From Chytriomyces cf. hyalinus JEL632 (lineage: Eukaryota; Chytridiomycota; Chytridiomycetes; Chytridiales; Chytriomycetaceae): DNA of 64,000 bases. The DNA is taken from the NCBI GenBank assembly GCA_025435555.1, contig JAIWWG010000001.1, forward strand, positions 982,753 to 1,046,752. Reading direction: 5' to 3'. Shown piece after piece: positions 27,038 through 54,208 of this stretch (the stretch's first letter is position 1; every line of letters begins with the position of its first letter). A program made the translations under genes and the position numbers. The notes beneath the pieces are model-generated. The model was not told where the DNA came from. It worked only from the letters and a program-made list of their open reading frames with translations, and did no database searches.

Positions 27038-28539
27038 CTACACGTGTGACAAAGTAAATGTTCCCGTCCGTCCATCCGAAGTTTCCCAAGTACCATTCAT
27101 GTATCCACCTGACACTTTGGCTCGATACATGACATTGACGGGTGCCCCAACTTCGGCAGTTTCAGACAAAGTCTCCATAAACTCAATTCGAGTTCCAGAT
27201 TCATGACACCGCCCCGAAATGGCCAAATCATCCACCAAGTTTTTTCCAGATACAGTCACACCTTGAACATGGATGTTGAATTTCATGCGATATTGTACAG
27301 GCACAATGACTTCTTGTTTTGTTTCATCGGGGGTTCCAGCGCCTTTGACAACTGTTATAACCGCATTGGCGGTATTACAAAGACGCGCAGTCACATTTTT
27401 CCCGCTTTCTGATGCAGCTGCTTTGAAAGCGTTGGCCGCCGAAGTGATTGAAGTTCGTGTTTGAGCTAGGGCCGTGTTTGTTGAAGCCTGAACAGTTGCG
27501 ATGGCGTTTTTCAGAGAATCGAGAGATGAGGAAATGGATGCTTTTGCAGGAGTGATTGGTTCTGTTAAAGGGGGAGGCAATCCAGTGGGGACGGCGGGGA
27601 GTGGTCTTGCTTCCTCCGGTTGCTCAGGGTTCGCGGCTTCAGGAGAAGTACTGGTGGTATCAATAGGATCGTACAAGATGGAGATGGCAGTTCCCGTCCA
27701 TTCGCCCGACAGATGGGCTGTTGCGGCAATCACTTCAGGTTTCGGACTGAACAAGGCAAGGGTGAATGCAAAAGGATTCATCTTTTTCTTGTCCGAAGCT
27801 GGTGGGGATGGAGGGAGAGAGTACACAGGTTGAGACTGCGTGCCTGCTGCGGTATCGAGAGCAGCAGACTGCTTGGAAGCAACACCCGCAGACACTTTGT
27901 CTACTCCAGCTATCACTGAATTTGAGACAACAACGTCAGTTGCCTTTCCAGCAACCAAACGCGTGGATGAGGCTAGGGCACCAGCGGTGATATCAGCGAC
28001 TGAAAAAAAAGAGACAGATTAGATCAATGACTCATGGGTTCCCAGTGACGCCCTACTTGGCTGGACGAGATGCTCGACCTGTCCCGCGACAGCATTGCCC
28101 AGAACGACGGCGGCCAGCTGGGCACCAACCAAGACAACTGCAGACTCATCCTGAGTCTGAAAACGGGAGTAATAAGTCACACAAATCGAATTCGCCATTC
28201 ACTGCAATGAGGATGAATAATCACCTTTTCCAAGACGGTGAGACCTCTCCGCCGCACTTCTGCAATTAGTTCGTCGTGGCTCCAAACACTGCGCCGTGAG
28301 CGTTGCGCACTGCGAGCAATTCCAAAAACAGCCATGGGCGAGCTGTGGTCGCAGATTATGATAAGCGAGATCGCGAGACGAATGAAAGGAACTCACAGCA
28401 GCAGCAAGGATGCGGTACCGCCAATGACGGCGCTGTTTGCGCGTGCATGTGCTGTACGAGTAGCTTTTTCAGCGAGAAGAAGTGTAGCGTCGTCCAGAGT
28501 CACGACAGGGACCGAGTTTGTGGGGCTGCGATGGAACAT
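27038..28539 (-). CDS. SPIAV/GEW-family protein A (unrecognised family)
   Basis: One of three paralogues in this window. Starts at ATG 28537-28539 (MFHRSPTNSVPVVTLDD), with introns at about 28400, 28210 and 28010. The N-terminal half matches the two other copies: SPMAVFGIARSAQRS, HDELIAEVRRRGLTVLE and VVLVGAQLAAVVLGNAVAG (a hydrophobic helix). A Ser/Thr/Pro linker follows, then the conserved C-terminal domain: LSGEWTG, QYRMKFNIHV, VSGKNLVDDLAISGR, EFMETL, VNVMYRAKVSGGYMNGTW, ETSDGRTGTFTLSHV. The alternation of hydrophobic residues and G-W / G-F-L closure suggests a small antiparallel beta-barrel. I know no named family with this architecture. The linker here is longer and Ala-rich compared with copies B and C. 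Confidence 0.75.
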
Positions 28540-29351
28540 TTTTATGATGAGTTTTTATTGATTTAAATACTCAAATATTTACGTAAATATCCGTGTGATT
28601 GCAAATCATCATTTTACCCAAGCTCTTGCACGTGCCAACTGAGACAAGGCACATTGCAGCATAGTCAGGTACAAGGGTCAGTGCCGCGCGCATTTGTGAG
28701 CGTGTTAATGTTTTAATATGCTTGGGTTCGGACAACTGCATCCGTCCATCCATCGTCAGTCACTCGCTCCCCATCATGCAGAAACACGTGCGCAGGAAGA
28801 CTATGATGGGTGGGAGTAGTGGATGCTGTGATTCAGCTGTCCAGAATCGTGTGTCTTGCTCTGTTTTGATTCAGCTGCGCCGCGTAAACAACAAGCAGGA
28901 TTCAAAGCGACTGCACAGCACAGATGGATCATTGCATGACTAAAATATACGCAGCACAATTGTGGAATTTGCTCTCATAGAAATACTGACGATGAGGCGG
29001 TTGGAAATGGGAAAACCAAGTGAAACCAATTTGCGCATTTTCCCCAATCAAGCCCATCAGCGAGAGTGCATCTGCCATTGAGGGACGGCAGAGGGGACTG
29101 CACGGGCCCAGCAGCCAGCAGCAAACACGCCCTCTGCAAGCAGCATCCATGGACCCGTACACGCCGTACCAACGTGTCGAGCTCCAGTCGCTGCCGTCTT
29201 TCAAAGTGCAGGTGGCGTTGTAGTCAAAACCCTAATAATCGCAGAGTGGCAAAAAAATTTAAATTCTCACGAGGCAAAGAGATAAATACAGCGCCTTTCT
29301 CCCTCCACAAAATAAGATAGCACAAACCTCCTCACAACAACTACCCAAACC
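28540..29351. other. Intergenic region
   Basis: 812 bp between divergent genes. Several open frames occur on both strands (for example minus 28929-29204) but they are cysteine/tryptophan-rich, short and without recognisable features. The last 100 bp before 29352 form an AC-rich leader. No supported gene. Confidence 0.4.
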
Positions 29352-29660
29352 ATGAGATTCAACGCCGTTGCCCTTCTTGTTGCTGCCGCTGCCGTCCTTG
29401 CACAGGACTCCTCCATTGAGGCCACCGGCACTGTCGCTGCCACCGCTGCCGCTACCAAGGCTGCTGCCACCTCTGCCGCTGCCGCCGCTGCCGAGACCAC
29501 CTCCGACGTCGTCATCAACCCCAACTACGTCAACGAGATCATGGGACGTGGAAAGGCTCTGTGGGCTTTCCTGCCAGTCTCCATTGTCGGAACCGTTGCA
29601 TCCCTCATTCCATTCTTCCGCAACTTTGACCAGGGAGTCCAGGCTGACGAGCAGTCATAA
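29352..29660 (+). CDS. Small Ala/Thr-rich secreted or membrane protein, copy 1
   Basis: Intronless, 102 residues. Signal peptide MRFNAVALLVAAAAVLAQ, then an Ala/Thr-rich stretch (ATGTVAATAAATKAAATSAA), a conserved-looking segment VVINPNYVNEIMGRGK, one hydrophobic helix (ALWAFLPVSIVGTVASLIPF) and a short polar tail RNFDQGVQADEQS. Topology is probably N-out with a single membrane span. Codons are strongly biased to C- and G-ending forms (GCC, GTC, ACC), suggesting high expression. It is a tandem duplicate of the gene at 30380, with only three residue differences (positions 14, 46 and 51). Family unknown. Confidence 0.85.
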   Translation: MRFNAVALLVAAAAVLAQDSSIEATGTVAATAAATKAAATSAAAAAAETTSDVVINPNYVNEIMGRGKALWAFLPVSIVGTVASLIPFFRNFDQGVQADEQS

Positions 29661-30379
29661 ATGTAGAACTTCCTAGACGGCTGATCAAAGATAGATTGTT
29701 TTGGTCTGGCCACCCACAGCTGGTCTGCAACTGCGCTTATTTGATTTCCTTCATTAGTTCTTCGTTTTCTGTTTCATAATCTAAGGTTCGGTGAAAGTGT
29801 GCCTGTTCTTTTTGCAGCGATTCGTGCAAAGGGAATAAACAACAGCAACTATGGTTGTATAGAGTAGAATCAATACACCACCACTATCACCATTTTACCT
29901 TGAGACTCCTGCTGTGTTTTGTAGTTGAGAATGCAGATGGATCCGTGCTTACGGCAATCGGAACACGGGAGCCATATGACAAGTTAGTAATTCCGGTTGT
30001 GGGTCAAATTGCATTATTGCATCCATCCATCCATCCATCCATCCTTGGCTCATTTGGGAGCAGTGCGCATAAAATTTCATGAATGCTTTCTCGTCAGCTG
30101 TCCATGTCGAAGGAAGGCTGACATATCCTGTCATTGGTTGGCATCCCCATCACTCACTGGCTACTGCGAGAGCCAGTTGATGTGTTGCTCTTTCAAAGGG
30201 GCGTAGCAAGGAGAGAGATGGATGCCAATTGGAAAAAGACCGGAGCGATTAAAAAAAAGCACAAAGATACCGGCCGCTTGCCATTTTTTAAGAGGTGGCG
30301 TCGGACAGATATGTTGGCAAATCTCCGGCAAAGAAGAAGAAGAAAAAAACAAAAACAAATCAAACACACTCCAAATCAC
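29661..30379. other. Spacer between duplicated small genes
   Basis: 719 bp. It contains an ATCC/CATC microsatellite at about 30019-30043 and the promoter of copy 2. Unlike the coding sequences, the two upstream regions are not obviously alike apart from A/C-rich leaders. No gene is seen. Confidence 0.4.
30020..30043. repeat. (ATCC)n microsatellite
   Basis: About six tandem ATCC units in the spacer between the duplicated 102-residue genes. Confidence 0.9.
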
Positions 30380-30688
30380 ATGAGATTCAACGCCGTCGCC
30401 CTCCTCGTCGCTGCCGCTACCGTCCTTGCACAGGACTCCTCCATTGAGGCCACCGGCACTGTCGCTGCCACCGCTGCCGCAACCAAGGCTGCTGCCACCT
30501 CTGCTGCCGCCGCCCCGGCTGAGACCACTGCTGATGTTGTCATCAACCCCAACTACGTCAACGAAATCATGGGACGTGGAAAGGCTCTGTGGGCTTTCCT
30601 GCCAGTCTCCATCGTCGGAACTGTTGCATCCCTCATTCCATTCTTCCGCAACTTTGACCAGGGAGTCCAAGCTGACGAGCAGTCGTAA
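30380..30688 (+). CDS. Small Ala/Thr-rich secreted or membrane protein, copy 2
   Basis: Start at ATG 30380, in the same context (ATGAGATTCAACGCCGT) as copy 1. The frame stays open far upstream but the homology begins exactly here. 102 residues, with the same signal peptide, Ala/Thr-rich stretch, VVINPNYVNEIMGRGK motif and membrane helix as the gene at 29352. The differences are A14T, A46P and S51A, and synonymous changes are few, so the duplication is recent or the copies are being homogenised by gene conversion. Confidence 0.85.
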   Translation: MRFNAVALLVAAATVLAQDSSIEATGTVAATAAATKAAATSAAAAPAETTADVVINPNYVNEIMGRGKALWAFLPVSIVGTVASLIPFFRNFDQGVQADEQS

Positions 30689-30964
30689 GCACGGAAACAA
30701 AAGCAGTGATACCTGGCCAACACAACACCCATCAAGTGAAGGCCTCTGTCGACAGACTGGGTCTTGTTTTATTTTTTATTCTCCTATGTTTTACTTAACC
30801 TATGTATGCTGTTAGTCTTTTTCTTAATACTGCTGATTCCATTCGTGCAATGCGTGCGCAGTTGGGTAATAAATCCAGTCAGTGTCGTGTGATTAAATGC
30901 TTCGCAATATATATTTACTGGACTTATTTTAAGTTAAAAACATTTACGAAATATAAAAATAGAA

Positions 30965-32816
30965 ATGTTAGTAAAACGGGCTCTGGCGACTCTGCGACGA
31001 CTACTCTCAGGCCACACCCGGCGCCTGCCCGTCACTGTGCTAGCATGCGTGTTTACCGTGCTGGTACTCGCAGCGGTGCTCGACTGCCCGGACCTCCTCC
31101 TGCGCACCACGCTGCACTACTGGACAAACCGCGAGGGCACGCGCGCAAGTAGCGCTGTCGCGCACGTCGGAACAAACAGCGACGGAACACTGCGCACGCC
31201 GATCCCCGCCTTCATTCTACGCACGTTCAAGTCCGCCGACAGGCTTGACATTGAAAACGCCGCTATGAACGGATCAGACAGCGCCAGAGAGCGAATGACC
31301 TGGTGCGCGCAAGTCGAGAGAGATATTATATACCATCACGTTCATTTATTGTTTTCATTTACATCAGGTTTAAAACCTGGGAAGGGCACAACCCGAATCA
31401 CGTTCAAATTATATTCAACGACGATGATGCGGATAGATTCATCAAAGGAACATTTGATCCGTATGTTGTCAAAGCTTTTTATAAGCTACCCAGGATCGTA
31501 CAGAGAGCCGACATGACGCGGTATCTGATGCTCTACGAATTTGGTGGAGTATACACGGACATGGATACGGAATGCTTCACTCCAATTGATCAATGGACGT
31601 ATGGACATCAAATGGTGCGAGCGATTGTTGGTGTCGAAATGCCTGGAACCACGAACGATGGACTGGATCAAATTGTGCAGTGGACCATGGCAATGGCACC
31701 AAAGCATGAATTTCTAGACGATGTAATTCGTGAACTATCACATAGAGTTCACACGAATACACGCGAGTTTCTCACACACGTGGATAATGTGGTTCCCATC
31801 ACGGGTCCTGGACTGTGGACCGATGTCTTTTACGATTACCTGCGAAAAAAGGAGTTTGATCCGAAAGCGGTTATCGGAATGCATCGCGCGTACAAGCTCA
31901 TTGGAGATTTGGTGCTTCTGGGACGAGTTCATTTTCAAGTACCCTTCATCTTTTCAATGCATCGATTTTCGGGCGAATTCAAGGACGGATGGAAAAAGAA
32001 GCAAGAAAAGCTGCTCGTTTCACCTGCCGATATATCCACGGAAGAGACAAAAGATTCACCGCCAGCCTCCATCAAACTGAACCGCACCATACCCCATCGA
32101 ATCTTGCGCCCGATGCGATCAAGCAGTCGCAGGCAGCTGAAAACCATGTTGACTCCTTCCCAATGGCACTGGTTCAACTCTTGGGAACACGAGAATCCAA
32201 CGCATTTACAGCTCCTGTTTGGCGAACGCGATTTGGATCGATTTGTGAAAGGAGCTTTTTCAAAAAAGATTGGGGCAGCGTATTTCAAGTTGAAAAGGGA
32301 GTTGAGGCCCCTGTTTGGTCGATATTTAATGTTGTATATATTTGGGGGAGTATCAACACGGGACTCGGTTGAATGTTTGCGGCCGTTTAGTGAATGGGAT
32401 GGGGTGGACGACAGGACAAGTCTTGTTTTGAGCGTGGAGGTTTGGTGTTCACCATCGCTTATTTTCTTGAAATACGTACCCTTAACTCCGGCTCTCTTTT
32501 TCGTTCCCCATAGATGAACGGGAAACTCGGCGATTCTGTTATTGCGGCATCACCGAAAAATCCATTCATTCGCGACTTGATTGCAATCATTGCTGAACGA
32601 ATCAGAACGACATCCGAAGAATGGCTCGATAAAAATGCATTTGTGGCGGCTGCGATTGGCGATTTAGCTGTGATTGAGATTGGCAAGCAATACAAGTTCA
32701 ATGCATCTGCCGCAGAGACGTCGACCACTGGATACACAAAATCAAGTGATATTTTATTGCTTTCAAGCAAATATGCGGTGGGAGAGGACGCCATCTTCAA
32801 GATTCATGAAGTGTGA
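30965..32816 (+). CDS. Two-domain GT32 (OCH1-like) glycosyltransferase
   Basis: Golgi type II membrane glycosyltransferase of the OCH1/alpha-1,6-mannosyltransferase family (GT32). Exons 30965-31302, 31368-32439 and 32514-32816 give 570 residues. A basic N-terminus precedes the signal anchor LPVTVLACVFTVLVLAAVLD. Domain 1 has IPAFILRTFKS, WFKTWEGHNPNHVQIIF, RADMTRYLMLYEFGGVYTDM and the DXD metal site in YTDMDTECF. Domain 2 repeats the fold: IPHRILRPMRSS, WFNSWEHENPTHLQLLF, FGRYLMLYIFGGVSTR, but its equivalent of YTDMDTE reads STRDSVE, so both catalytic Asp are lost. Introns fall so that the repeats align across junctions. Domain 2 is probably structural or regulatory. The nucleotide-sugar donor is assumed GDP-mannose from the family, not shown. 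Confidence 0.85.
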
Positions 32817-32913
32817 GGAAGGGGTGAGGCTAAAAAAACAAAAAACAAAACTAGAAAATACAATATTTAAAAGGCGCATCAATGTTTGTTGTTTTTTGCA
32901 ACCGTGCAATTTT

Positions 32914-33268
32914 CTAGTGTTCTGCTTGTTCTAAGATTTTGACAATGTTCCACTCATTCCGCCGAATGGCCTCTCTTTTGGCGATCGAGTTTTCGTAGTG
33001 AACGTCCGCGCCGTACGAAATCAGGGCTTCCACAACCGCAGTACTGCCAACACAAGCTGCCGCCTGGAGCGGTGATTTCCCACTTGGGACACCATGCATT
33101 GGTATATTCGGCGAGGCTCCAGCTGCAAGTAGCTGCAGGCAAACGGAGTCATTGCACATTTCAATTGCTCCAAACAATGGCGCGTTATTCAATGCTGACA
33201 CTGAAGCGCCGTTCTCGATAAGAAATGCGACAACTTCTGAGTTCCCAAGACTTGCGGCGAATCTGTTG

Positions 33269-33306
<38 letters not shown>

Positions 33307-34051
33307 GATGTTTCAAAATTTTGATTAGACACGTTTTGTTGCCCTAACCAACGTTAAGCTTAACGAACCTCAATGCCTCATCCGCTCGTGCATGTACGTT
33401 GGCGCCTGCATGCATCAGCAACTGCATCGTGCCAATATTCTTTAACCTACAAGCTTCACGAAACGCTTCGTCTTCACGAACGCCAATCAGCTTCCTCCTC
33501 GCTTCCAAACTAGAAGCGCCTGCATCCAAAAGAGCCAGCACGATGCACTCTCCATCCTCACGTTTGCAAGCAAGACGCAGTGCACTTGATTCCAACGCAT
33601 CAAAAGACGCTCCACAGCGGATGAGTGATTTGAATAAACTTGAACAGTCCATTTCAAAGTAGCTGTAGAACTGTAGCCATGTTTTCTGTGGTTTTACGAG
33701 CATCTTGACGGCGGCGGCGGCAGCAGCAGCAGCTTCATCATTGTCCGAGCCGCCGTCATAGTCATCGTCCTCATCATCGTCCTCAGCACAGTCTTCATCG
33801 TCAATGTCCATAGCAAGCATGTGTCGAACGGGGAAGCCTGGAATGACTGGTTCCTTGAGCAGGGCAATCATGGCCAGGTCGCTGCCAAACGCAGCCTTGA
33901 TGATTTGTGCGTGCACGGCGGGTGAGGACCAAGTCTCCTGACGCAGGGCCTTGAATAGGGAGGTGACTTGGGCAAACTGAGACAGCGACGCAGTGCTGGA
34001 GACGCTGTGGATTGTGATGGACACCCACAGTTCGATAGGCAGAGCTGTCAT
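32914..34051 (-). CDS. Ankyrin-repeat protein with F-box-like N-terminus
   Basis: Starts at ATG 34051 (MTALPIELWVSITIHSVSST, F-box-like: LPIELWVSI). An acidic Asp/Glu stretch and a poly-Ala run (about 33710-33800) follow. Ankyrin repeats come next: LFKSLIRCGASFDALESSAL, VLALLDAGASSLEARRK, MQLLMHAGANVHARADEALR, then, after an intron, AASLGNSEVVAFLIENGASV, LQLLAAGASPNIP and SPLQAAACVGSTAVVEALI. It ends ILEQAEH at 32914. The intron (about 33264-33368) contains a run of over 30 T on the coding strand (poly-A on plus, 33269-33302), long for a pyrimidine tract. Ankyrin/F-box proteins act as interaction adaptors; substrate unknown. Confidence 0.8.
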
Positions 34052-34418
34052 TGGCGGAGTACAAATTTTTTGAAAAAAAAAAAAAAAATGAAAGGGCTGG
34101 GCCTCCGGAAAAATAACTTGTTTCACTTTGACCGCGTTGGTCCTCTGGAAGACCTTTTTACTCCATGTGAGGGAAAGTTTCCATGCGAGGTAAGGTAACA
34201 GAAGAGCAAGCGTTTCTCCACCTCGAGTGCACGCACATCGGAGACAGTCAGCGACGCTTTGCCAGCTACCCAGCTGTCTGCGCCGAACGCACCCATCCTG
34301 CTTCCTCTCACACCACCACCACCGCTCCTGATTCAACAGGTTCGAGAGGGATGAGACAACCTGGGCATGAACCCCCTTTAATTATGTAATCCGAGTGCGC
34401 CAAATTGTGTTACAAAAA
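34052..34418. other. Divergent promoter region
   Basis: 367 bp between the ankyrin gene and family protein B. A 16-A run at 34073-34088 lies just upstream of the ankyrin start. No gene is seen. Confidence 0.4.
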
Positions 34419-35778
34419 ATGGTGTTTTGGAGCAAGAAGCAACCGACTCCGAAGCCGCTGTCCAAACCAACAGCGCAGACACTTGCTTCCATCGACGATA
34501 AGGTGATCAGCCTCTCTCTCCCATTCCTTCATGTGGACCGCACGCATCTGATTTGCTTTAAACAACAGACACTGCTGGAGCTCGAACGGGAATGCCGGAC
34601 AAGACACAAGCAAAACATTGCGCAAACCGTTGGATCTGCGGGACGAGTCTTGTCAAAGTCACCCATTGCGGTGGCATCCATTGCTCGATCTGGCCTCGCC
34701 ACCTCAAAAACATTTGTTGAGCATGACGAGATCTTGAAGGAAGTTAAGCGGCGCGGCCTGACTCCGCTCGAGCAGCTATCCAGCGAGAATCTGTACGTCA
34801 TGGTGGCAGGACAACTTGGTAAAAAAACATTCATCTCTTTGCTTTTGTGTCTCAGTGGGGGTACTTAAATTTACAAAAACATGCATGCCCTTCCCTCACT
34901 CAGTCGCTGTCGCAGTTGGGCACAAAATGGGAGAAAAGATTGCGCACGGTGTTGTCGAACCAATCATCACCCGATTCGGCGGAATCGCTGTGGAACGAAT
35001 GACGCAAAAGTTTACCGAGCAAGTAGTGGAACAAGTCGCGGAAAACGTTTTGAGCTCTGCCGCAATCAACGCGCATAGACCTGTTGACCCTTTCTCTGCT
35101 ACTCCTTCAAGCTCTGCGACCGCCTCTGCCGCTGGTGGTGCAACTGCGGGATCTGCAGCTTCGACACCGGCTGCGGGATCTTCGCGATCAAGTATTTCCC
35201 TAACAACCGCTGTGTCGGTTGCAAATGCAGCAATGTTAATGGGAAGAAAGACGATCGTTGGTGTCTCGAATACCGTGTTTAAAAAATCTGCTGCCGCTGA
35301 AACTGGCAGCAGCAGCAGCTCCGGCAGCTCTAACCCGCTCCACATCGTAAACTCGGTTCAATCCCAGCATTTCTCGGGTCAATGGGTTGGTATAGGAGAG
35401 GAACTCGAAATCGCTGTTGAAGACAACTTTTTGGATGAAAACGACATTCGTGTGCTCAAGAACAAGTTGGCTGCCATGCCCGAAATGGACGACGCGGGGC
35501 ACACGAAAGTAGCGCAAGTCGTTGCTCGGTACCGCATGAAATTCTCCTTCCAGTTTAGAGCGCACGAGTTTTCAGGCGAAAATATGGTCGACAACTTGTC
35601 TGTCAACGGGGTTATCGATGATCAGGGAACGAATGTCGATTTTGCAGAGATGGTGATTGCCCCGGATGGCCAGGAGGTGGTTGTTTCGTACGTGGGCAAG
35701 ATTAGTGGGGGGTTAATGATTGGCGAGTGGGTTTCCTCGGACGGACGGAGTGGGCTTTATCGCTTGAAGCATGTGTAA
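34419..35778 (+). CDS. SPIAV/GEW-family protein B (unrecognised family)
   Basis: Exons 34419-34502, 34569-34818 and 34904-35778 give 402 residues starting MVFWSKKQPTPKPLSK. The conserved N-terminal region has LELERECRTRHKQNIAQTVG, SKSPIAVASIARSGLATSK, HDEILKEVKRRGLTPLEQL, LYVMVAGQL and VGHKMGEKIAHGVVEP. A Ser/Ala-rich linker (about residues 165-240) follows. The C-terminal domain has FSGQWVGIGEELEI, ARYRMKFSFQFRAHEFSG, ENMVDNLSVNGVI, FAEMV, VVVSYVGKISGGLMIGEW and SSDGRSGLYRLKHV. No signal peptide. The GQL...AVAVGH stretch could be a buried or membrane-associated helix. It is followed 69 bp later by paralogue C in the same orientation. Function unknown. Confidence 0.8.
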
Positions 35779-35847
35779 ATAAAGTATGGTGAAATACAGT
35801 TCAAGAAGGAAAAGTGGGTGGACAGATTTGCAGGAAAATCTCTCAGC

Positions 35848-37188
35848 ATGAGGGGGTCCATGAAACCCGCGTCCAAGGGTGACTACAAGCGCTTCGACGA
35901 CTACACTCTCCTCCGAATGGAGCAAGAATCTCGCAAGAAGCATAAAATGTCTGTCGCCAAAGCGGTGGGTGCAGCGGCCAAAATTCTCTTCAAATCACCC
36001 ATCGCTGTCTTTGGAATCGCCAAAACTGGCTTCAAGGCTCATCAGACGTACATGGATCATGATGAAATCTTGGATGAAATCAAACTTCGGGGGCTTAAAC
36101 CTTTGGAAGCAGAGCCACAAGAAAGCATTTATGTCATGGTTGCGGGGCAGCTTCTCGCCGTTTTTATTGGGCACAAGCTCGGTGAAAACATGGCAAATTC
36201 GTACGTGGAGCCTCTGATAACGCGCTTTGGCGGTGCTGCCGTTGAAAAGATGTCAGAGAAGGTACGACTTGTCATAACACCCTCTTTCAACACCAAAAGT
36301 AAACAACGCCAATCTCATTAGCTCACAGAACACATTGCCGAAGAAGCTTCCGAAAGTATATTCAGCAATCTATTCGCAAAAGCGCACTTGCGCCCAAATT
36401 CCGCCAACCAAGCCACCACCACTGCTGGACAACCGGCCACACAACGCCCCAACTCTGCAAACTCTGCAAACTCGAGCAATTCTCATTTAAGTTCTAGACC
36501 CGCATCAACGCGACCAACTTCAGCCCATTCAGCTTCATCAGAAGTCACCGCACCCGACGCCAATGGCGGCCACCCAGGAACTTTGAAACCATCACGGTCC
36601 GCAACGTCCCTTGCTGCCTTGAAAGAAATGGCAACTTCTGTGACAGCCTTTGGTGTCTCCAAGGCCACAGAAATGGCTCAAAAGTATCTTTCAAAGCCGT
36701 CAGTCACGTCAGCGAGCTTACAAACCATCAGCCCTACGTACAGCGGCGAATGGACTGGCTTTGCCGAGGAACTGGAAATTGTGGCGGTTCAAGGGACAGA
36801 CTCTGACGATGACCACTCGAAACAAGACTTTGGCGTCCATGCTTTGTTCTTGAAGTTGTCGGCGGGTGTCACACAGCTGGAGCGTACTGCAAATGGTCAG
36901 AAGAAGGAAGTAGTTTGCATTGCGCGTTACCGGATGCGGTTCTTGGTTCAGTTTGAGGGCAGTCGTGTTACTGGTAAAAACATGGTCGATGACTTGGCAA
37001 TTGTAGGACAAGTCCAAGACGCGCAATCCCATTTTTACTTTACAGAAATGGCAAAGGAGTCTACTGGGCAAGAGATAACAGTGTATTACCAGGGTGGGGT
37101 GGTTAATGATGAGTTGGTTGGGGAGTGGGTCGCTTCTGACAAGCGGCAGGGGCTTTTCCGTCTCGGCCGAAGCGAGAAAATTAAGTGA
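35848..37188 (+). CDS. SPIAV/GEW-family protein C (unrecognised family)
   Basis: Exons 35848-36261 and 36322-37188 give 426 residues starting MRGSMKPASKGDYKRFDD. N-terminal region: LLRMEQESRKKHKMSVAKAV, FKSPIAVFGIAKTGFKAHQ, HDEILDEIKLRGLKPLE, IYVMVAGQLLAVFIGHKLGE and VEPLITRFGGAAVEKMSEK. The linker is rich in Asn, Ser and Thr (RPNSANSANSSNSHLSSRP). C-terminal domain: YSGEWTGFAEELEIV, ARYRMRFLVQFEGSRVTG, KNMVDDLAIVGQV, YFTEMA, TVYYQGGVVNDELVGEW and DKRQGLFRLGRSEKIK. It is closest to B and is a tandem duplicate of it. The linker diverges fully while both end domains are kept, which argues that both are functional. Confidence 0.8.
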
Positions 37189-37982
37189 ACAGTATTCTCA
37201 GCTAGCTTTAAATAAACTCAAAAGTGGTCAATCATTGTGAGGAAATATTCTGAACGTATTGCTGAGCTGCACTTACCACATTTGGATAGTAGGTTGTCAA
37301 GGGATCGCATGTGTTATGGTGGATGAGATCAGGATCACAACAAATTTTTGGGGGGAGACTGCTAATATGGGGCTGAATCTGCTCATCGGAACATGACAGA
37401 ATATGGAGACAGTCTTCCATTGTCATTTTTATAAAATTACGCGTTGACATGTCTTTGCAAAGACTCAGTGTCCAACCAAGATGCTCTGTGGATGGTGACA
37501 CTGCTAAAGCAAGATGTGTATAAGCCATTCTTGCGTTATGAGGTTCCGACTTTTTTTTTCAGTGGTAATGAGTTCCTATTTTTTCAAGGACAATAAGGTT
37601 TGTATGTCAGTTGAGTTGGTTGAAATATTGTTTTTTATCATTTCAGTTCCTGTTACTGCACTTTAGGGTCCATTCCACCCTAACATTGCATTCCCACACT
37701 CATATTCTTGCCTAAAACTCTGTCTTTCTCCCATTGAAAAGCAGTTACAAGATAAGAACACTGATGCAAAACGAACCATATGAAGTTTCCAGCAATAAGT
37801 TCTTTGACAGGAGTGTCAGCAGGTAGAAACCCTGGAGCTGCTGGGCCAACTGGAGAATCAGACAACAGAAACAACATTCAAAATGTCAAAGCAGTACACA
37901 TGCTGATTCAAGTTTGCATTTCACAGACAGGGACCATTCTGGAGATCATTACCAGCAAAAATAATTGTCTCAAAAAGGCACT
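37189..37982. other. Region between family gene C and the retroelement
   Basis: 794 bp. An ATG-initiated minus frame at 37232-37528 (98 codons, MAYTHLALAVSPSTEHLG) has no recognisable feature and may be transposon-derived. The rest is AT-rich and noncoding as far as I can see. Confidence 0.35.
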
Positions 37983-38177
37983 TGTTGTTGAGTTTTGTTT
38001 TGAAGAGAGCAGTGTTTATTCGTCCGAATATGCCGTGTTAAATACTTAAAGTAAAGTCCGATGAAAATGTAATAATAAAAATCAGTGGCGAATGAATGAC
38101 AACAAACAATCTCATGAACCACCCAAGTGCTGCCCGACAATCTCATGAGCGGGACACTGACGCTGGGGATTCCAACA
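37983..38177 (-). repeat. 3' LTR of the copia element
   Basis: 195 bp, bounded on the element strand by TGTTGGAATCC (at 38177) and CTCAACAACA (at 37983), i.e. 5'-TGTTG...CAACA-3' inverted ends. Immediately upstream on the element strand lies the polypurine tract GGGTAGGGGGAG (about 38178-38190), the usual plus-strand primer position. AATAAA on the element strand near 38014-38019 could be the polyadenylation signal. The pol frame reads on into the LTR. No matching 5' LTR was found in the window. Confidence 0.8.
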
Positions 38178-39520
38178 CTCCCCCTACCCGGCGACGCTAG
38201 TCTCCAACCCATCGTGGCTCGGAACCTCTCGAACTCGCTTGGTCCTTTCGACTTGGTAAGTCCATCTGCCTTCTGATCTTTGGTAGGTATGAACACTAAC
38301 TCGATGTTATGTTCCTTGATGGCTTCTCTCACAAATGTGGTCTTCCCAACCATGTGTCTTGTATGGTCGTTGATGATGGTGTTTCTGCTCGAAGCTATGG
38401 CCGCCTGGTTATCCTCATAGATGATGGTCTTGATACCCAAGACACCCAAATCGGTAAGTAACTCTCTTAGCCACATCACCTCCTTGATGACATCTACTAA
38501 CGCATTTACTTCTGCTTCCATTGATGATAGTGCTACCAACTTCTGTTTCCGGGATCTCCAGCTGACTAGGTTCCCTCCGATGAATACTGCATGTCCACTC
38601 ACTCTGTATGCTCCCTCGCTGAGATAGCTAGCATCGACCCACGCCTCGATTGAGTTCTCCTTTCCAGTCCTGTACGTTAGTTCCAGTCCTTTTGTGTTCA
38701 CCAAGTACCCGGTTAATCGTTTCAACGCTGTCCAATGCAGTTCTGTTGCTTTTGATGCGAATCGCCCCAGGTAAGCTGTTGCGTATGTTATGTCAGGTCT
38801 TGTAGATACTGACGCATACATTACTGCACCCAACAGGCTCCTGTATTGTTCCATTGTTGATTCTGCTGTTTCATCTGGTAGTTTGATTCCGGTTTCCAGT
38901 GGCGTCCGGTACTTTGTGTTTTCCAGCTTGTATCGTTGTCCAATCAATTGGATGTAGCTCTTTTGTTGAAAGCTCGCCTTGCTGCCCTTCCAGTCGTACT
39001 TGATAACCAATCCAAGTAAGGTATGTATCTCCCCCATAAACTTGACTTTGTACTTGTCGACTAAGTGTCCTTCCACCCATTTTCGTAGTTCTTCGTTGTT
39101 CGTGGCGACTAAGATATCATCCACGTATAAGGTAATCAGCAACTTGCTCCCGTTTCTTTGAATTCTGAATAATCCTGGATCTGACACCGACTGTTTGAAT
39201 CCAATGATAACCAATGTTCCCTTAAATTCCTCGTTCCACAGGTAGCCTCCTTGCTTCGTTCCATAAAGCCCTTGCAAGAGCCTTAGCACGTGTCGCTTTC
39301 GATCAATTTGTGGGTCCAAGAGTTCGTAGCCATCTGGGATCCAGATTACGACATTGAAGTCCATCTTCGAGTTAAGGTAAGCTGTTACGACATCCATTTG
39401 TGTGATGTGGTACACCTTTGCTAACAAAACACTTAATACTTTGATTGTCGTAGATCTTACCACAGGTGCGAATGTCTCATTGTAGTCCACTCTTTCCACC
39501 TGGGTGAATCCTTGAACCAC
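38150..39520 (-). pseudogene. Copia reverse transcriptase and RNase H region
   Basis: Long open frame beginning at LVVQGFTQVERVDYNETFAP (the conserved VQGFTQ...Y.ETFAPVV start of copia RT). The catalytic YVDDILVAT box is present. RNase H follows with EAWVDASYLSEG, GNLVSWRSRKQKLVALSSME (SSxEAE-like) and YEDNQAAI. The frame upstream is closed by a TGA at about 39536, and the RT N-terminal part (WKAAILDELNSLVENGTWEV, TKWVHKQK) continues in the same frame to about 39760. Apart from the stop, the catalytic residues look intact. Confidence 0.88.
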
Positions 39521-40210
39521 AAGTCAAGATTTGTATTTCTCAAATACTCCTGCTGCATTCTTCTTCTGCTTGTGCACCCACTTAGTGTCTGCAATATTTT
39601 CAGTAGGTTCCTTCCTCAGGTCAATCACTTCCCATGTCCCATTTTCGACTAATGAGTTTAGCTCATCCAGGATTGCGGCCTTCCATTTCGCAGCATCGTC
39701 CCTTTCCAGAGCCTCTGCAATCGATCTTGGTTCTTCTGTTATTGCTGAAAATGTGTAAGTCGCTTTTCACTGTCTTCCACTTTCAATGATGTTTGACTGA
39801 TCGACTGATGAATTAATGTCTTTTGCAGCAATCTTGTTTCTTGGTTCGATCACTTGTTGCGTTTGGTCTGGTATGGCTGTCTTTGATCTTGGTGCTTGGA
39901 CTTGTGATAGCTGTCTTAGGATTTTGATTGGTGATGGGCTGCGGGGTTCTGCTTCCTCGTCTGAGTCTCGGTTTACTGGTTCCGGCGTGTGTTGCCTCTG
40001 TGGTTAGGTTGCTTCTCGTTGTTCTGGTGGAGGGTTTCTTGCTGTTGGTTGTCTTGCCGGTTCAGCTTGTTCGTCTTTCTTGTCTTCGGAGTCTGAGAGT
40101 AACTCAGGTAGCTCATCACGTGGTGTCTCTGCGTCGGAATCTTGATCTTGCTTGGAGAACTTGACATGGATGGATTCGAAAATTCTGCCGTTGCTGGTTT
40201 CTTCCAGTAA

Positions 40211-41698
40211 TTACCCTTTCCCCTTGATTCCTAGGACCCTACACTGAACTCCCTTGCTGTCTAGCTTTCCGCGCTTATGTCCATTGACGTACGCCACACA
40301 TTTTTCCCCGAATCGCCTCATGTATTTCAAGTTTGGCTTCTTTCCCGTCATGGCTTCGATTGGAGTTTTGCTGCTGGTTGTTGATCGTGTTGGGCATCTG
40401 TTCCTGATGAAGACTGCCATCGCAAGTGCGTATATCCAGTAGTTCTCTTTGTCCATCTTTGCATCTGCTAACAATGTCCTGCACATTTCTACCACGGTAC
40501 GGTTCTTTCTTTCTGCGATCCCATTTTGTTCTGGTGTGTACGGTGTTGATACATTGTGTTTAATTCCATTTGCTTTGCACCACCTCATGAACTTGCTGTT
40601 GATGAATTCGCCTCCTCTGTCGGACACAATTGACTTCAATTTGTGGTTATACTGAGTTTTGATCAATTTGATGATGTCAAGGATTCCTTGAAGTGCGTCA
40701 CTTTTCTTTCCTAGGATCTTCGCGAACGTGCATCCACTTCTGGTGTCTGATACCATGAGGACTGGCGTTCCCTTCACAAAGGTAAGATCTAGGTTCAATT
40801 CTTCTCCAGGTATTTCAACTTTCTCTGATTTCTCCTTTCCGATTTTCCTAGTGGCTTTTGATTCCATGCATGTGCTGCAGTCTCCGAGCTCATTGTCCCC
40901 CAGTGTTATCCCGTCAGCTTGTTCGCATAATTTCCGTAGGTCTCCCGCATTCAAGTGGCCCATGAGATGGTGAGCTTCCTTCATTGTGAGTTCCCTGTTC
41001 ATTGATGACTGTGATGTTAATCCAACTGCGTTTTCCTTCAAGGTGTAGAGTCCTTCATGGATATCAGTGGCATGGAGGATGATCTTCCTGTCTATCGAGA
41101 CTGAAGTGCCCTTTTTGTTGAAGTTCACAGTTGCACCTTTCATGCAGAGCGCAGAGATTGACAGGAGGTTCACTGATAGTTCAGGTACGTAGAGAACCCC
41201 TGTGATTGTGATTGTTCCATCCTCACGAATTAAGTCAACAGCTCTTACTCCCATGATTTTGAACCGGTCACCGCTTGCTGCCGTGATTTTCCTGAGGTTG
41301 TCCTTGACTGTTAGATTCTTGATGATTTCCTTGTCGCCTGTCATGTGGTTGCTTGCACCAGAATCCAGTATCCAGTCGCCATCTGCTGATTTGATTTTTG
41401 CTGCGGTGAGAACATAGTTTCTTGATTTGTTCACTTGGTTTGCTTTCTTCTCATCACTATGCTTTTCTTTTTGCTTTGGTCCTTGGCCTTCCTTGTCGCC
41501 ACCTTTGCCCCAACAATCCGTCTTTTTGTATGACAGTGTTGAGGTGGAAAATGTGATCGAAGCTATGCTGGGCCTGGTTTTGGCAAGTGACACTGGTGAA
41601 GTCGGGGTTGTTGAAGCTGAGCATTTGTGGGGTTTGTATGTGGGTCGTATGGAAGTCTCGAGAGTGTTTGTGGCAGATTTGACGTAGTATGTGGACAA
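40211..41698 (-). pseudogene. Copia protease and integrase region
   Basis: Protease motif WILDSGASNHMTGD near 41330-41375, preceded by a damaged zinc knuckle (KKTDCWGKGG). Integrase has the zinc-binding HLMGHLNAGDLRKLCEQ with CSTCMESKA, and a DDE core: DLTFVKGTPVLMVSDTRSG (first Asp), IVSDRGGEFINSKFM (second Asp) and TPYTPEQNGIAERKNRTVVE (Glu). The frame ends after GIKGKG. The homologous continuation NYWKKPATAEFSNPS lies in another frame, showing a one-base shift. Confidence 0.88.
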
Positions 41699-47602: not shown

Positions 47603-47728
47603 GTGGGCAGTTGACCAGGATCACACGAAGTAAATAAAATGAAGCAAAGTAAAAAATATTTCGCATTTTCCCAAAGTTCAAGTCAAGTTGAACACTGCCA
47701 TAAAAAGGGTTCGACAAACACACACTTG

Positions 47729-48394
47729 ATGCTTCAGACGCTCGTCCATCCTTTGCTGCTCCTGCTGCTGGCCTCGACGACTGCATACGCCTTGCAGCAT
47801 GTAGCACGAGTTGTGCCTGGCACCGACAATGGCATCAGCAACATCAACAGCAACAACAAGAACATCCAGGCATGGACCCACCTCCGCAGTCTTCTTGCCT
47901 CCACGAACCACCGCGCCGCAGACGCAGCAGTAGGAGCACCTGCCTCCGCCTCCCTCTCAGGCCCAGCAGAGGCTCCTCGGGGAATGTCGGGCGCTGCTAT
48001 CGCAGGCATCGTCGTTGGTGCGCTTGTGCTTGTATTCCTGCTGGCGGGCGTTGTATACTTTGTGCGCACACGCCGCTCTTCCTCCTTCAAAAGAGTCTCG
48101 ACTGTGCAAACGATGCGCGTGCGCCGTGTCAACTCCACCGCAAAGTCGGCCATGGGTTACGCACGTACCGAGGATTCCGATGCACCTGCTGCTGCGAAGC
48201 CACTTCGTTCCAATGCCACTGAGAAAGTCATCATCCCATACTTGGCGACTTTGCCGGATGAGCTGACTGTCGAAGTTGGCGAGCTTGTGCAGGTTGTCGA
48301 GAGATTCGATGATGGATGGGTTAAAGGTCGCCGCGTGAAGACTGGCCACGAGGGAACCTTCCCAGGTGCTTGTGTTGGATACGGTAATCCATAA
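47729..48394 (+). CDS. SH3-domain single-pass membrane protein 1
   Basis: 221 residues from the ATG at 47729; the frame is open further upstream, but this start gives a signal peptide (MLQTLVHPLLLLLLASTTAY). A short Ala/Ser-rich ectodomain precedes the membrane helix AAIAGIVVGALVLVFLLAGV and a basic stop-transfer (RTRRSSSFKR). The C-terminal SH3 domain reads VIIPYLATLPDELTVEVGEL, VQVVERFDDGWVKGRR, GTFPGACVGY: ALYDY-like start, ELxxxxGD loop, DDGW and the FPxxCV close are all present. Type I topology puts the SH3 in the cytosol. The layout resembles yeast Fus1 and similar fungal surface proteins; the role is inferred only. Confidence 0.85.
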   Translation: MLQTLVHPLLLLLLASTTAYALQHVARVVPGTDNGISNINSNNKNIQAWTHLRSLLASTNHRAADAAVGAPASASLSGPAEAPRGMSGAAIAGIVVGALVLVFLLAGVVYFVRTRRSSSFKRVSTVQTMRVRRVNSTAKSAMGYARTEDSDAPAAAKPLRSNATEKVIIPYLATLPDELTVEVGELVQVVERFDDGWVKGRRVKTGHEGTFPGACVGYGNP

Positions 48395-48687
48395 GCTGTG
48401 CGGTTTACCCCTCTTCTTCATATCACTGGGGCCAGACATGGTTTTTTATTTTATCAGCGTGTCTGAGTTGGAGGTGTCTCTGTTCTCAATAAATATCAAT
48501 ATATGCACGAAAATAGCGTTGTAGTCGTGGTAGCCAAGAGTAGTTGAGAGTGTTGGTGCGGGTGATGGCTGCGGTATGTTCAGCTTTGACCTCGTCAGTT
48601 GAACCTTATCAAGTTCAACTCCCTTCAGGTTTCTCAAAAGAATTGAAATAACAGTCACCAAAACACAGCCCCAAACTTTACAACCAA
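48395..48687. other. Intergenic spacer
   Basis: 293 bp with an AATAAATA signal near 48488 and no gene visible. Confidence 0.4.
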
Positions 48688-49491
48688 ATGCATCTCAGTC
48701 TGATCATCGCCAGCACGGCGCTCTCCTTCCTTCCCACATACGCACTCGCAGAACCGGGCCAGTTCCTCGCAGCGATCGCCAACAGCAACCCAGTTCCATT
48801 TTCTCCATCTAGTCCGCAGCCAGTCCATCACCTTGCAGGAGTGCACCGCAACGGCCCAACTAGTCCAATCAGCAACAGCAAACATGTCGTCGTAGACTCG
48901 TTCAAAAACTTTCTCTCCTCACAAAGGACCAATGTTGGGGGACCCATGGCTGCGGTCGATGGCGCCGCCGCCGCCGCCGCCGCCGCTTCCCCGTCAACCA
49001 GCCCCGAATCGGCGACTTCTTCTTCATCTTCAGTTTCATCATCCTCCAATGCACTAAGCACACCCGCCATCATCGGAATCGCAGTCGGCTCCGCTGTCCT
49101 CGTTGCCGTGATTGCATATCTGATCATGCGCATTCTACGCTCCAAAAAGTCAAACACTAAACGTACCAGCACAATGTCATACCTTCCAAGCACATCCAAA
49201 GACGCCGGCCCTTACATGAGCATCAAAGCCCAACCCGTGAATTCCATCTCTGGTGGTCGACAGAGCCCCACAGGACGCACTGGCGGGGAAAAGGTTGTCA
49301 TTGGCTACACTCCAGCAATATCGGACGAGTTGGAGATTGCCGTTGGAGATTTGGTCAATGTACTTGAAAGCTTTGACGATGGGTGGATGAAGGGAGTGAA
49401 TGTGCGGACGGGGGAGACGGGGCTGTTCCCGGCTGCATGCTTGGGGTACGTGCCTTCTCCGACAGGCAATGATGGAGCGTTGATTGTTTGA
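48688..49491 (+). CDS. SH3-domain single-pass membrane protein 2
   Basis: Intronless, 267 residues. Signal peptide MHLSLIIASTALSFLPTYAL. The ectodomain is Ser/Pro-rich with a poly-Ala run (about 48960-48990) and Ser runs, probably O-glycosylated. Membrane helix IIGIAVGSAVLVAVIAYLIM is followed by RILRSKKSNTKR. SH3: VVIGYTPAISDELEIAVGDL, VNVLESFDDGWMKG, ETGLFPAACLGYVP. Of the array members it is closest to members 1 and 6 in the SH3. Confidence 0.87.
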   Translation: MHLSLIIASTALSFLPTYALAEPGQFLAAIANSNPVPFSPSSPQPVHHLAGVHRNGPTSPISNSKHVVVDSFKNFLSSQRTNVGGPMAAVDGAAAAAAAASPSTSPESATSSSSSVSSSSNALSTPAIIGIAVGSAVLVAVIAYLIMRILRSKKSNTKRTSTMSYLPSTSKDAGPYMSIKAQPVNSISGGRQSPTGRTGGEKVVIGYTPAISDELEIAVGDLVNVLESFDDGWMKGVNVRTGETGLFPAACLGYVPSPTGNDGALIV

Positions 49492-49894
49492 TGTTTAAAA
49501 TTTGTTGTTGGAGTTGCTCTTGTTTTTTTCTTCTGCGCCTGTATCCCCTTTCCAGAATACAGCTTTCTTTTTTGAAAGGTTATCAAAAGTGCTTTGTTAT
49601 CATTGGTGTCCGTGTTTTCTTGCTCTTCTACCTCGTATCTAGCTGATACAACGCGAGGTTCTTGCGGAGTTGGCGTTTCATAAATTGATTTGCAATGCAC
49701 ATGCCACTATTACGCACTCTACCATCGCATTATCAGGGACACTGCTGTAACGGTACAACAGTGCCAGTCCAATGTCGCGTCCGTTGAACGTCGGGGTTGA
49801 GCAAAGGATGTTCAAACATGACGTATGTGCATCGGTGGCAGAAAATAATCAGCATTTAAAATCGAGAAATTAAACACAAACTCAACTTAAAAAA
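49492..49894. other. Intergenic spacer
   Basis: 403 bp; TTTTTTCTTCTG and AT-rich sequence, no gene seen. Confidence 0.4.
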
Positions 49895-50710
49895 ATGAGA
49901 GTCATTGCAGCTCCGCTCTTTTTCAGTCTCTGTCTCGCAAGCATCCAAGCAAGGGCGGACCGTGTTCCTGGCGATGACTTGCCTCCGGTTGATACGTTGG
50001 TGGACCCCGCCGCCGCCGCGATGACCTCCCCCGCTCCCGCAACTTTGGCACCGATCAAAGGCAACTTCGAGCGCCGTCAAGGGCTGTTTGATTTCTTCAA
50101 AACGACAACTTCCTCAATACTTGTATCCTCACAACTTGGATCCTCAACGCTTGGATCCTCAATCTCTTCAAATGCACCCAGCCCTTCCTCAACAAGCTCT
50201 GCAGCGTCAATAACCGAATCCCTTAAAACCAGCAACAGCTCACCGGATCAAAATATGGCCTCCTCCCTCACACAAACCGCAACGGTATCAGCACCATCTA
50301 CTTCCGACAACCCGTTAGCAAACCCCATCATTATTGTATCCATCGTGATTGCATGCCTCGCATTCCTCGGCATCACACTCGCACTCATTTGTTTCCGTCA
50401 CACGCTATTCCCGCGTTCCTTTTCTGAACTAGAAAACCGGAGATCCATTCACACCATCGCCGGCGCCGCCGACACGCACAAACCATACCAAGAAATACCT
50501 TACAAACCTCTCGTGAACCCTTTAAAAAGACTTCGAGCCAAAAAAGTAGTATTCAGTATACTGCAGCAGCAAATTCGAATGAATTGAGTGTGGAGATTGG
50601 GGATTTGGTGGATGTTCACGGATGTTGTCGATGATAATTTTGTGAGGGGTGTGTTGTTGCGGACTGGGCAGGAGGGTGTGTTTCCGAGGATATGTGTTGA
50701 GACGGTGTGA
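49895..50710 (+). pseudogene. SH3-domain single-pass membrane protein 3, SH3 domain frameshifted
   Basis: The intact part (49895-50587) has signal peptide MRVIAAPLFFSLCLASIQAR, a Ser/Thr-rich ectodomain with three LGSS-type repeats (about 50115-50165), and membrane helix IIIVSIVIACLAFLGITLAL. The frame then ends KVVFSILQQQIRMN. In a second frame the SH3 begins IQYTAAANSNELSVEIGDLV, and in a third it ends VVDDNFVRGVLLRTGQEGVF and PRICVETV at 50710. Two frame changes are thus needed, the first next to a run of six A (about 50539-50544). The gene has either lost its SH3 domain recently or the assembly carries indel errors. Confidence 0.7.
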
Positions 50711-51079
50711 AGGGGATTGTGTGTGTGAGGAGGATCGAGAAATGTGTGAGGAAGCATCGAGACGGATCTGTTCATTCTCGCGCAGAGCGTATCTTCGCGC
50801 ACCTGATTTAAAGAAGGGAATAAATGTGCAATAATATAATAACAGCAATAATAATAAGAAGAAAGAAGAAGAAGAAGAAGAAGAAGAAGAAGAAGAGAAG
50901 AAGAAGAAAGACGAATAAGAAGAGAAGACGCCGCAGACGCAGAAGAAGACGAAGAAGAAGAAGAAGAAGAAGAAGAAGAATAATGTATAAACGACACCAC
51001 AAGTTTGAACTCTTTCTTGTTGGGTTCAACACCCATCACACATTTCACAGCCAAAAAAAGACAGTGCACCCATCTCCAA
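50711..51079. other. Intergenic region with GAA-rich microsatellite
   Basis: 369 bp. It is dominated by a (GAA)n / (AAG)n tract from about 50860 to 50982. Long open frames over it (poly-Arg or poly-Leu/Ser) are products of the repeat and not genes. Confidence 0.6.
50860..50982. repeat. (GAA)n microsatellite
   Basis: Interrupted purine-rich trinucleotide tract, about 120 bp, upstream of SH3 membrane protein 4. Confidence 0.9.
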
Positions 51080-51628
51080 ATGCAGTTCAGCACAGCCTTC
51101 CTGACAGCCATCCTGCTGGCAGCGTCCGTCCACGCCACCATCGTCAACATGGCCGAACGAAAGTCATCTCTCCAGCCCATCAGAGCTCTCTCCAATCTCA
51201 GCGCGAAAATGGCTGCCATCCAGCCACCCACCGAATCGAATCCATCAAACGCATCCACGGCCCCAGCACCACCCGCTAATGGTCTCAGCGGCGGTGCTGT
51301 CGCTGGTATTGCCATCGGCGGGTGTGTTGCTGTCGTGGCCGTAGTCGGCGGCGTGTTTGGTTTACAAAGACGGAATCGATTCAACAACGGCGTCACTGGC
51401 ATTGAAGGCGGGTACTCCAAAGTCAAAACGGCCACGACACCAACTTCGAGTTTGGTGATGCGCTCTGTGGTGAAGGGTTTCACGCCCATGCGAGATGACG
51501 AGCTGACATTGTTTATTGGGGACCAGGTGCGTGTGGTGGAGCGTCATGACGATGGATGGGGTAGAGGGATTGTCAAGCGGACTGAGGGAGAGGGATATTT
51601 CCCACTGAGCGTGATTGGAGAGAAGTGA
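51080..51628 (+). CDS. SH3-domain single-pass membrane protein 4
   Basis: 182 residues from ATG 51080, the start that exposes the signal peptide MQFSTAFLTAILLAASVHAT. Short ectodomain with SLQPIRALSNLSAKMAAIQP. Membrane helix GAVAGIAIGGCVAVVAVVGG, then LQRRNRF. SH3: MRSVVKGFTPMRDDELTLFI, GDQVRVVERHDDGWGRGI, EGYFPLSVIGEK. Conserved Asp-Glu-Leu and DDGW are intact. The ectodomain is the shortest of the signal-peptide members. Confidence 0.85.
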   Translation: MQFSTAFLTAILLAASVHATIVNMAERKSSLQPIRALSNLSAKMAAIQPPTESNPSNASTAPAPPANGLSGGAVAGIAIGGCVAVVAVVGGVFGLQRRNRFNNGVTGIEGGYSKVKTATTPTSSLVMRSVVKGFTPMRDDELTLFIGDQVRVVERHDDGWGRGIVKRTEGEGYFPLSVIGEK

Positions 51629-51690
51629 TTTTGTGGTTGGTGTTGGAAAGCTGCAATAACAATAAAAAATTATTATCCGTGTTCATTCAA

Positions 51691-52239
51691 ATGCCTGCTC
51701 GAAACATTGACGGTGTGCAGAGGGTCGACTTGCCTGATACGGACCCTGCGCAGCCGTCCAGCAGTATGCTCTCAGGCGCTATCCCGCTGCTGGCAAACAT
51801 CACAGCAACAGCAGACACCCCAGAGTCACCGCTGCAGCTACCGCAACGCCAGGCCCACTCCAGCGCAGTGTCACTGTTTCTATCCATCCTTCTAACGGTC
51901 GTCCTTGTTGGCCTAATTGCCGCAATTCTGTGGATCCACGTGTTCAAGCAGCCCATCCCACGCATCATCCGTGTACGCCAACTATACAAAAGTCTCGGCT
52001 CAAGCAGCAGCGCAGACAGCGACGAATTCGGGCTCGTTATCCAGAAAGTGAAGCGGTCGCATACGGCTGTGATGGGGGATGAATTGACAGTGGTTGTTGG
52101 GGAGTCTGTGGAGGTGTTGGAGGAGGATGAAGGGATGGATGAAGGGTGGTGTCTTGTGAGGCGGGTGCGGAATGGCGAGACTGGGAGTATACCCATGCAT
52201 TGTTTGACGGGGGAGGCCACCTCGTTTACGCTGCAGTGA
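51691..52239 (+). CDS. SH3-domain single-pass membrane protein 5 (no signal peptide)
   Basis: 182 residues from ATG 51691, 62 bp after member 4. The N-terminus MPARNIDGVQRVDLPDTD is polar, so no cleavable signal is seen; membrane insertion would use the helix VSLFLSILLTVVLVGLIAAI. An unnoticed upstream exon could supply a signal. SH3: RSHTAVMGDELTVVVGESVE, VLEEDEGMDEGWCLVRR, ETGSIPMHCLTGEA. The aromatic start (ALYDY-type) is lost and FP is IP, so ligand binding may differ. Confidence 0.75.
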   Translation: MPARNIDGVQRVDLPDTDPAQPSSSMLSGAIPLLANITATADTPESPLQLPQRQAHSSAVSLFLSILLTVVLVGLIAAILWIHVFKQPIPRIIRVRQLYKSLGSSSSADSDEFGLVIQKVKRSHTAVMGDELTVVVGESVEVLEEDEGMDEGWCLVRRVRNGETGSIPMHCLTGEATSFTLQ

Positions 52240-52402
52240 GGCTGATGAGGAACAGGGGGGATGTATACGTTTGTGGTAGTGTTGTTTGTTGGTGCGAAAA
52301 TAATAGGATGTAGTAATGTGTGTATTCTGAATCTTAACTCAGCTTGTGGTTGGTTTTTCAGTTGAAGGACTGGACCAATTGAAAAACCAGCACTCAAAAA
52401 AA
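52240..52402. other. Intergenic spacer
   Basis: Short spacer; no feature beyond an A-run before the next ATG. Confidence 0.3.
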
Positions 52403-54066: not shown

Positions 54067-54208
54067 AAAGAAAGAGAGTGTGTGTGCAGCTTATAAACAG
54101 TTTTGAATAAAAATAAAACAGTAACATTTATCCTTGGCGTTGTTGACGACAGGGGATCATAAAATGAGCTGTTTTTTTAATGATATTATTATTCAAATAG
54201 TTGAGCAT

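Follow-up and report, generated by a model that had tools for sequence, protein, structure and literature searches.

Do three neighbouring genes of the chytrid Chytriomyces cf. hyalinus JEL632 belong to a single protein family, and what might their products do in the cell? The genes, here called A, B and C, lie in a window of 64,000 nucleotides (C1:982753-1046752 of the assembly, most likely the end of its contig), the whole stretch of DNA analyzed in our study, and an earlier note on this DNA had proposed that they are paralogues built from two conserved blocks. Our analyses bear this proposal out, and the paralogy of the three genes is far above chance. The alignment of genes B and C spans almost their full length (about 430 columns, E about 5e-80), and gene A matches B and C in two separate blocks, an N-terminal one (82 and 77-83 bits, respectively) and a C-terminal one (78-79 and 72 bits); between the two blocks of A there are merely matches of 10 and 27 residues around a GxW motif (E 0.29 and 0.17). 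As a control, 200 shuffled A sequences compared with A, B and C peaked at 26.6 bits. An artefact or a set of pseudogenes was rejected as an explanation, because the reading frames are open, the introns are of the GT-AG type (three of them separate the four exons of gene A), orthologues exist and two of the three gene models coincide with deposited proteins: the product of gene A is identical to BJ741DRAFT_586454 and that of gene B to BJ741DRAFT_586461, while gene C shares 96% identity with its orthologue HDU78_003595 of C. hyalinus. Common intron positions, which would be a sign of recent duplication, were also looked for and not found: genes A, B and C have three, two and one introns, none of them at an equal aligned place as judged by eye.

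The family is small in this genome. With five queries drawn from gene C, gene B and two distant relatives, the 37.8-Mb assembly yielded only the loci of A, B and C at E <= 0.001 in a search that goes exon by exon and scores the best candidates only; the one stray match elsewhere had an E-value of 2.0 and five stops. In protein databases, three overlapping searches gave 2 matches among 6,683 scored candidates, 6 among 7,997 and 13 among 7,998, which together form a set of 16 proteins (P0001 to P0016), two of which are genes A and B themselves (P0003 and P0008). All 16 come from Chytriomyces, Rhizoclosmatium, Siphonaria, Obelidium, Entophlyctis and Podochytrium, genera that are all placed in the Chytriomycetaceae, and the family is therefore apparently lineage-restricted, as far as sequence comparison can tell. 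It is important to consider that these protein searches require exact shared words of five residues and score only the best word-sharers, so their reach is limited and absence elsewhere is no proof. Prokaryotic and viral relatives of the C-terminal domain were also sought, and none of the 21 genome_contigs and 43 viral_contigs pattern matches was confirmed by tblastn. In an unrooted FastTree tree of the full-length alignment, the B/C-type proteins, in which the C-type is sister to the B-type, split from the A-type ones with a support of 1.0. Both types are present in Chytriomyces, Obelidium and Rhizoclosmatium, which makes the split likely older than these genera; the C-type was found only in Chytriomyces. 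Siphonaria has two A-type genes with consecutive locus numbers and Obelidium two that are three numbers apart, which suggests, from the names of the genes, that other local clusters may exist.

Special attention was given to whether the family had already been described, which the earlier note had doubted. In scans of Pfam, NCBIfam, PADLOC, PHROGs and the PDB sequences no match fell below E 0.01, and the remaining matches are spread over unrelated families. The Pfam scan covered 12 of the 17 sequences (genes A to C and nine relatives, leaving out P0001, P0002, P0004, P0005 and P0009), that of NCBIfam four, and those of PADLOC and PHROGs three each. For genes A to C the single Pfam match at E <= 10 is Hamartin (E 1.4), and at the same threshold neither gene C nor the profile labelled A3 matched any PDB sequence. 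Matches to HARE-HTH (P0006, E 0.24) and to SseG- and MccV-like proteins (E 0.021 and 0.099), located in or just after the N-terminal block, were set aside. In the literature searched, the locus prefixes BJ741DRAFT, HDU78, BCR33DRAFT, BDR26DRAFT and CcCBS67573 had no match, and none of the titles among the matches listed for gene families of Chytriomyces or Rhizoclosmatium, lineage-specific genes of chytrids or fungal avidin-like and calycin proteins deals with this family.

The second domain has a fold that can be recognized. Two structure predictions, carried out on the full-length P0002 and gene A proteins, fold the C-terminal block into a small beta-barrel, as the earlier note had anticipated (an unfolded C-terminal part would have counted against its proposal), and the resulting fold lists, which cover the barrel only, point to a streptavidin-like or calycin-type meander barrel, a fold already known. 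The P0002 model, whose two barrel parts share 64% and 58% identity with gene B, is an antiparallel meander of eight strands; the gene A model lists ten elements, two of which are doubtful as separate barrel strands. A GxW motif in the first strand is a signature of calycin and streptavidin-like proteins, and it is present there in all 17 aligned sequences. The adjacent placing of SGEWxG and YRMKF in the earlier note did not hold, the distance from GxW to the YRMKF block being 44-54 residues in the B/C-type proteins and 88-132 in the A-type ones (131 in gene A). This stretch is loose in six of eight pairs of relatives (51-85% identity; 94% and 100% in the other two), and in the models it carries a helix between strands 1 and 2, at residues 280-290 in P0002 and with a length of 42 residues in gene A.

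Likeness of fold does not by itself place the family in any of the groups it resembles. The streptavidin- and avidin-like barrels (monomeric streptavidin 4jnj and tamavidin 2zsc) share 12-20% identity with the family barrel, to which our proteins add the helical N-terminal block, the linker and, in the A-type, the long stretch after strand 1. The biotin site of streptavidin uses three tryptophans per subunit and one from a neighbouring subunit. Membership among the biotin-binding avidins fails, given that the family members have too few tryptophans (2-5 per whole protein; two in gene C, and three in genes A and B, one of which is outside the barrel) and no sequence match: the barrel profile gave six matches in the PDB, none of them an avidin and none below E 0.17. 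Fatty-acid-binding proteins head the Foldseek list of P0002 (E from 2.4e-3 upwards) and are among the first matches of gene A, with template modelling (TM) scores of about 0.3-0.4 by target. They have ten strands, a helical lid between strands 1 and 2, and neither an N-terminal block nor a linker; a low-confidence helix lies at the place of that lid in our models, the P0002 barrel has eight strands, the gene A model lists the ten elements noted above, and no sequence match links the two groups. Strand number and lid thus decide neither for nor against membership. Cap15 is the cyclic-dinucleotide receptor of CBASS (cyclic-oligonucleotide-based antiphage signalling system) in bacteria and has N-terminal transmembrane helices. 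Here the identity is 8%, the family has a linker of 57-226 residues and the gene is fungal; among the three proteins scanned with PADLOC there was no Cap15 match, only PDC-S34 (E 0.01) and ThsA (E 0.037), and the fold is the sole support for membership. The best match in the viral structure library, a Cedratvirus protein (E 1.5e-4, TM-score 0.36 by target, root-mean-square deviation 14.1), was judged not interpretable, the model being partly of low confidence. We have consequently filed the family as one not yet described, whose second domain has a known fold.

Conservation within the barrel follows a pattern. In 13 of the 17 sequences (the near-duplicates hyal_HDU77, hyal_HDU81, C_hyal_HDU78 and confervae were left out), residues alternate between conserved and variable in the strands from YRMKF on, and in all seven strands counted the more hydrophobic face is also the more conserved one; strand 347-354, outside these seven, agrees with the trend. 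The conserved face carries Y357, M359, F361, N374, F/W394, E396, V410, Y412, W425, F435, L437 and H439. It probably corresponds to the interior of the barrel, in which case its invariant polar side chains would suggest a pocket for a ligand more than a docking surface on the outside.

The N-terminal block comprises about 105 residues with the motifs DDxTLLxxExxxR, SPxA..IA, H.....E..RR.L..L, E and Q..A...GH, and in both models its SP pair is found at the start of the second predicted helix, where it may serve as a helix cap. The membrane association suggested in the earlier note is not established: the best Kyte-Doolittle windows of 19 residues range from 1.39 to 2.08 in the A-type and from 0.98 to 1.54 in the B/C-type, two overlapping ranges, and most B/C-type members have a Lys or Arg inside the first hydrophobic stretch. 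The linker is variable in sequence as well as in length and, in agreement with the same note, is freer than the domains, being less conserved than both in seven of eight pairs of relatives. Of 15 tests for helical periodicity, uncorrected for their number, one on a linker segment reached p 0.048 for conservation.

Taken together, we tentatively favor a two-domain family in which the barrel binds a small ligand, the N-terminal block anchors the protein and the linker acts as a tether. The interior of the barrel, lined by the invariant Tyr, Asn, Glu and Tyr, would hold a small ligand that is probably amphipathic or lipophilic; the helical block would serve as an anchor, either in a membrane (the A-type being the most plausible case) or on a partner; the flexible linker would let the barrel reach out from its anchor; and the pocket would be covered or gated by the segment with the predicted helix that joins strand 1 to strand 2 and is long in the A-type. 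Inside the cell, such a protein would serve as a module for binding or transfer that stays tethered. Several observations weigh against this proposal. The Foldseek matches have weak E-values (2.4e-3 and 7.0e-3 at best), and a fold shows no function. Model confidence, as the predicted local distance difference test (pLDDT), is about 45 in P0002 and 31-39 in gene A for the helices that lie between strands 1 and 2, and it is also low for those of the N-terminal block (about 27-64 in both models); none of the four segments of that block showed helical periodicity, whether in conservation or in hydrophobicity (p >= 0.178), and the hydrophobic stretches of the B/C-type are marginal for a membrane. 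Strand 1 as aligned breaks the face rule (its conserved face is less hydrophobic, 0.17 vs 0.28), the subfamilies being misaligned there, and gene C, like its orthologue, has Arg in place of the C-terminal His (H439). In the pair P0003/P0004 the linker (97%) is not less conserved than the barrel (95%; N-terminal block 99%), and in P0006/P0015 the N-terminal block (41%) falls below the barrel (67%), where the P0015 model lacks its start. In addition, a conserved interior is equally expected from plain core packing.

Alternatively, the barrel may be free of ligand and serve as a structural or protein-docking module, like the exclusion domain in cathepsin C and the barrel in PvdP, with the family acting as a scaffold that links two proteins. 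We regard this as somewhat unlikely; the less conserved strand faces are quite variable in seven of seven strands (mean entropy 1.84-2.37 bits) and a docking surface would need to be formed by loops. The bridging role proposed in the earlier note is without direct support. The apparent restriction of the family to one lineage might also reflect a failure of homology detection, the genes being a fast-evolving branch of a widespread family with no special biology, which is compatible with the other readings. The barrel fold is common, the search was limited to the best word-sharers, and linker and barrel change rapidly (45% and 58% identity in P0008/P0002); against these stand a profile search that at E <= 10 returned 13 proteins, all of one fungal family, the lack of a PDB profile match below E 0.17 mentioned above, and an N-terminal block conserved well enough (74% in the same pair) that relatives in other chytrids might be expected. 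We consider this explanation unlikely.

Two more specific proposals place the family in the zoospore. In the first, the N-terminal block would form a hairpin in the membrane of a chytrid organelle, such as the zoospore lipid-rumposome-microbody complex, and the barrel would handle the lipid of that organelle. This idea draws on the two hydrophobic stretches of the A-type block, with a conserved Ser-Pro inside the first, on the place of fatty-acid-binding proteins at the top of one Foldseek list, and on the part of the literature that describes such a complex, with its lipid globule and rumposome, in Rhizoclosmatium zoospores (PMC8887899). It nevertheless seems very improbable: the B/C-type proteins are not clearly membrane proteins, and the number of the R. 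globosum B-type gene (BCR33DRAFT_852469) has 0 occurrences in the main text of that article. It is also quite improbable that the family is an invention at the base of the Chytriomycetaceae, a membrane- or organelle-anchored, tethered lipid or metabolite barrel that split early into two jointly kept subfamilies with a role in a structure special to zoospores. If a lipid-binding barrel with a membrane anchor were indeed present, the family would offer a way into the lipid and organelle biology of chytrid zoospores, about which little is known. The novelty is of an ordinary kind, an uncharacterized and apparently lineage-restricted gene family, and it gives content to entries annotated as 'hypothetical protein', namely the recognizable fold of a ligand barrel, strands with one conserved face and two cleanly separated subfamilies. 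Table 1 includes the coordinates of the three genes and their domains.

Table 1. Positions in the window of genes A, B and C and of their predicted domains.
Feature	Position	Strand	Details
Gene A (A-type)	27038..28539	minus	exons 28539-28397, 28342-28225, 28156-28057, 27999-27038; 440 aa; deposited as P0003
Gene A, N-terminal helical block	28058..28494	minus	residues 16-120, over exons 1-3; helices predicted, low pLDDT
Gene A, barrel strand 1 with SGEWTG	27671..27712	minus	residues 217-230
Gene A, long in-barrel stretch	27320..27670	minus	strand 1 to YRMKF block; low-confidence helix at residues 276-317 in the model
Gene A, remaining barrel	27041..27319	minus	residues 348-440
Gene B (B-type)	34419..35778	plus	exons 34419-34502, 34569-34818, 34904-35778; 402 aa; deposited as P0008
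Gene B, N-terminal helical block	34494..34965	plus	residues 26-132, across two introns; modelled on relative P0002
Gene B, C-terminal barrel	35365..35775	plus	residues 266-402; modelled on relative P0002
Gene C (C-type)	35848..37188	plus	exons 35848-36261, 36322-37188; 426 aa; orthologue P0001
Gene C, N-terminal helical block	35896..36219	plus	residues 17-124; by alignment
Gene C, C-terminal barrel	36742..37185	plus	residues 279-426; by alignment to modelled relatives

The stop of gene B and the start of gene C are 69 bases apart (35779-35847, plus strand), so the promoter of C would have to overlap B, or else the two genes may be co-transcribed. Between A and B, on the plus strand, we identified a frame with a glycosyltransferase DXD sugar-binding region (31255-32514, PF04488, E 9.7e-15) and two tandem genes for 102-residue proteins (29352-29660 and 30380-30688) that are identical at 99 of 102 residues; of their codon differences, 16 are synonymous and 3 alter the amino acid. 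By eye, these proteins start with what resembles a signal peptide, contain a stretch rich in Ala and Thr and have a C-terminal part that is hydrophobic, and their Pfam matches are weak (E >= 0.014). Just downstream of gene C, on the minus strand, there are two Copia-like retroelement frames (37970-39523 and 40211-41698, 517 and 495 aa), which by eye are reverse transcriptase/RNase H-like and integrase-like. Farther along, on the plus strand, 47615-58225 holds at least five genes (frames at 47615, 48652, 50984, 53263 and 57278) whose products combine a hydrophobic segment, recognized by eye, with an SH3 domain at the C-terminus (SH3_1, E 1.4e-10 to 7.2e-7), a layout reminiscent of membrane-anchored SH3 osmosensors.
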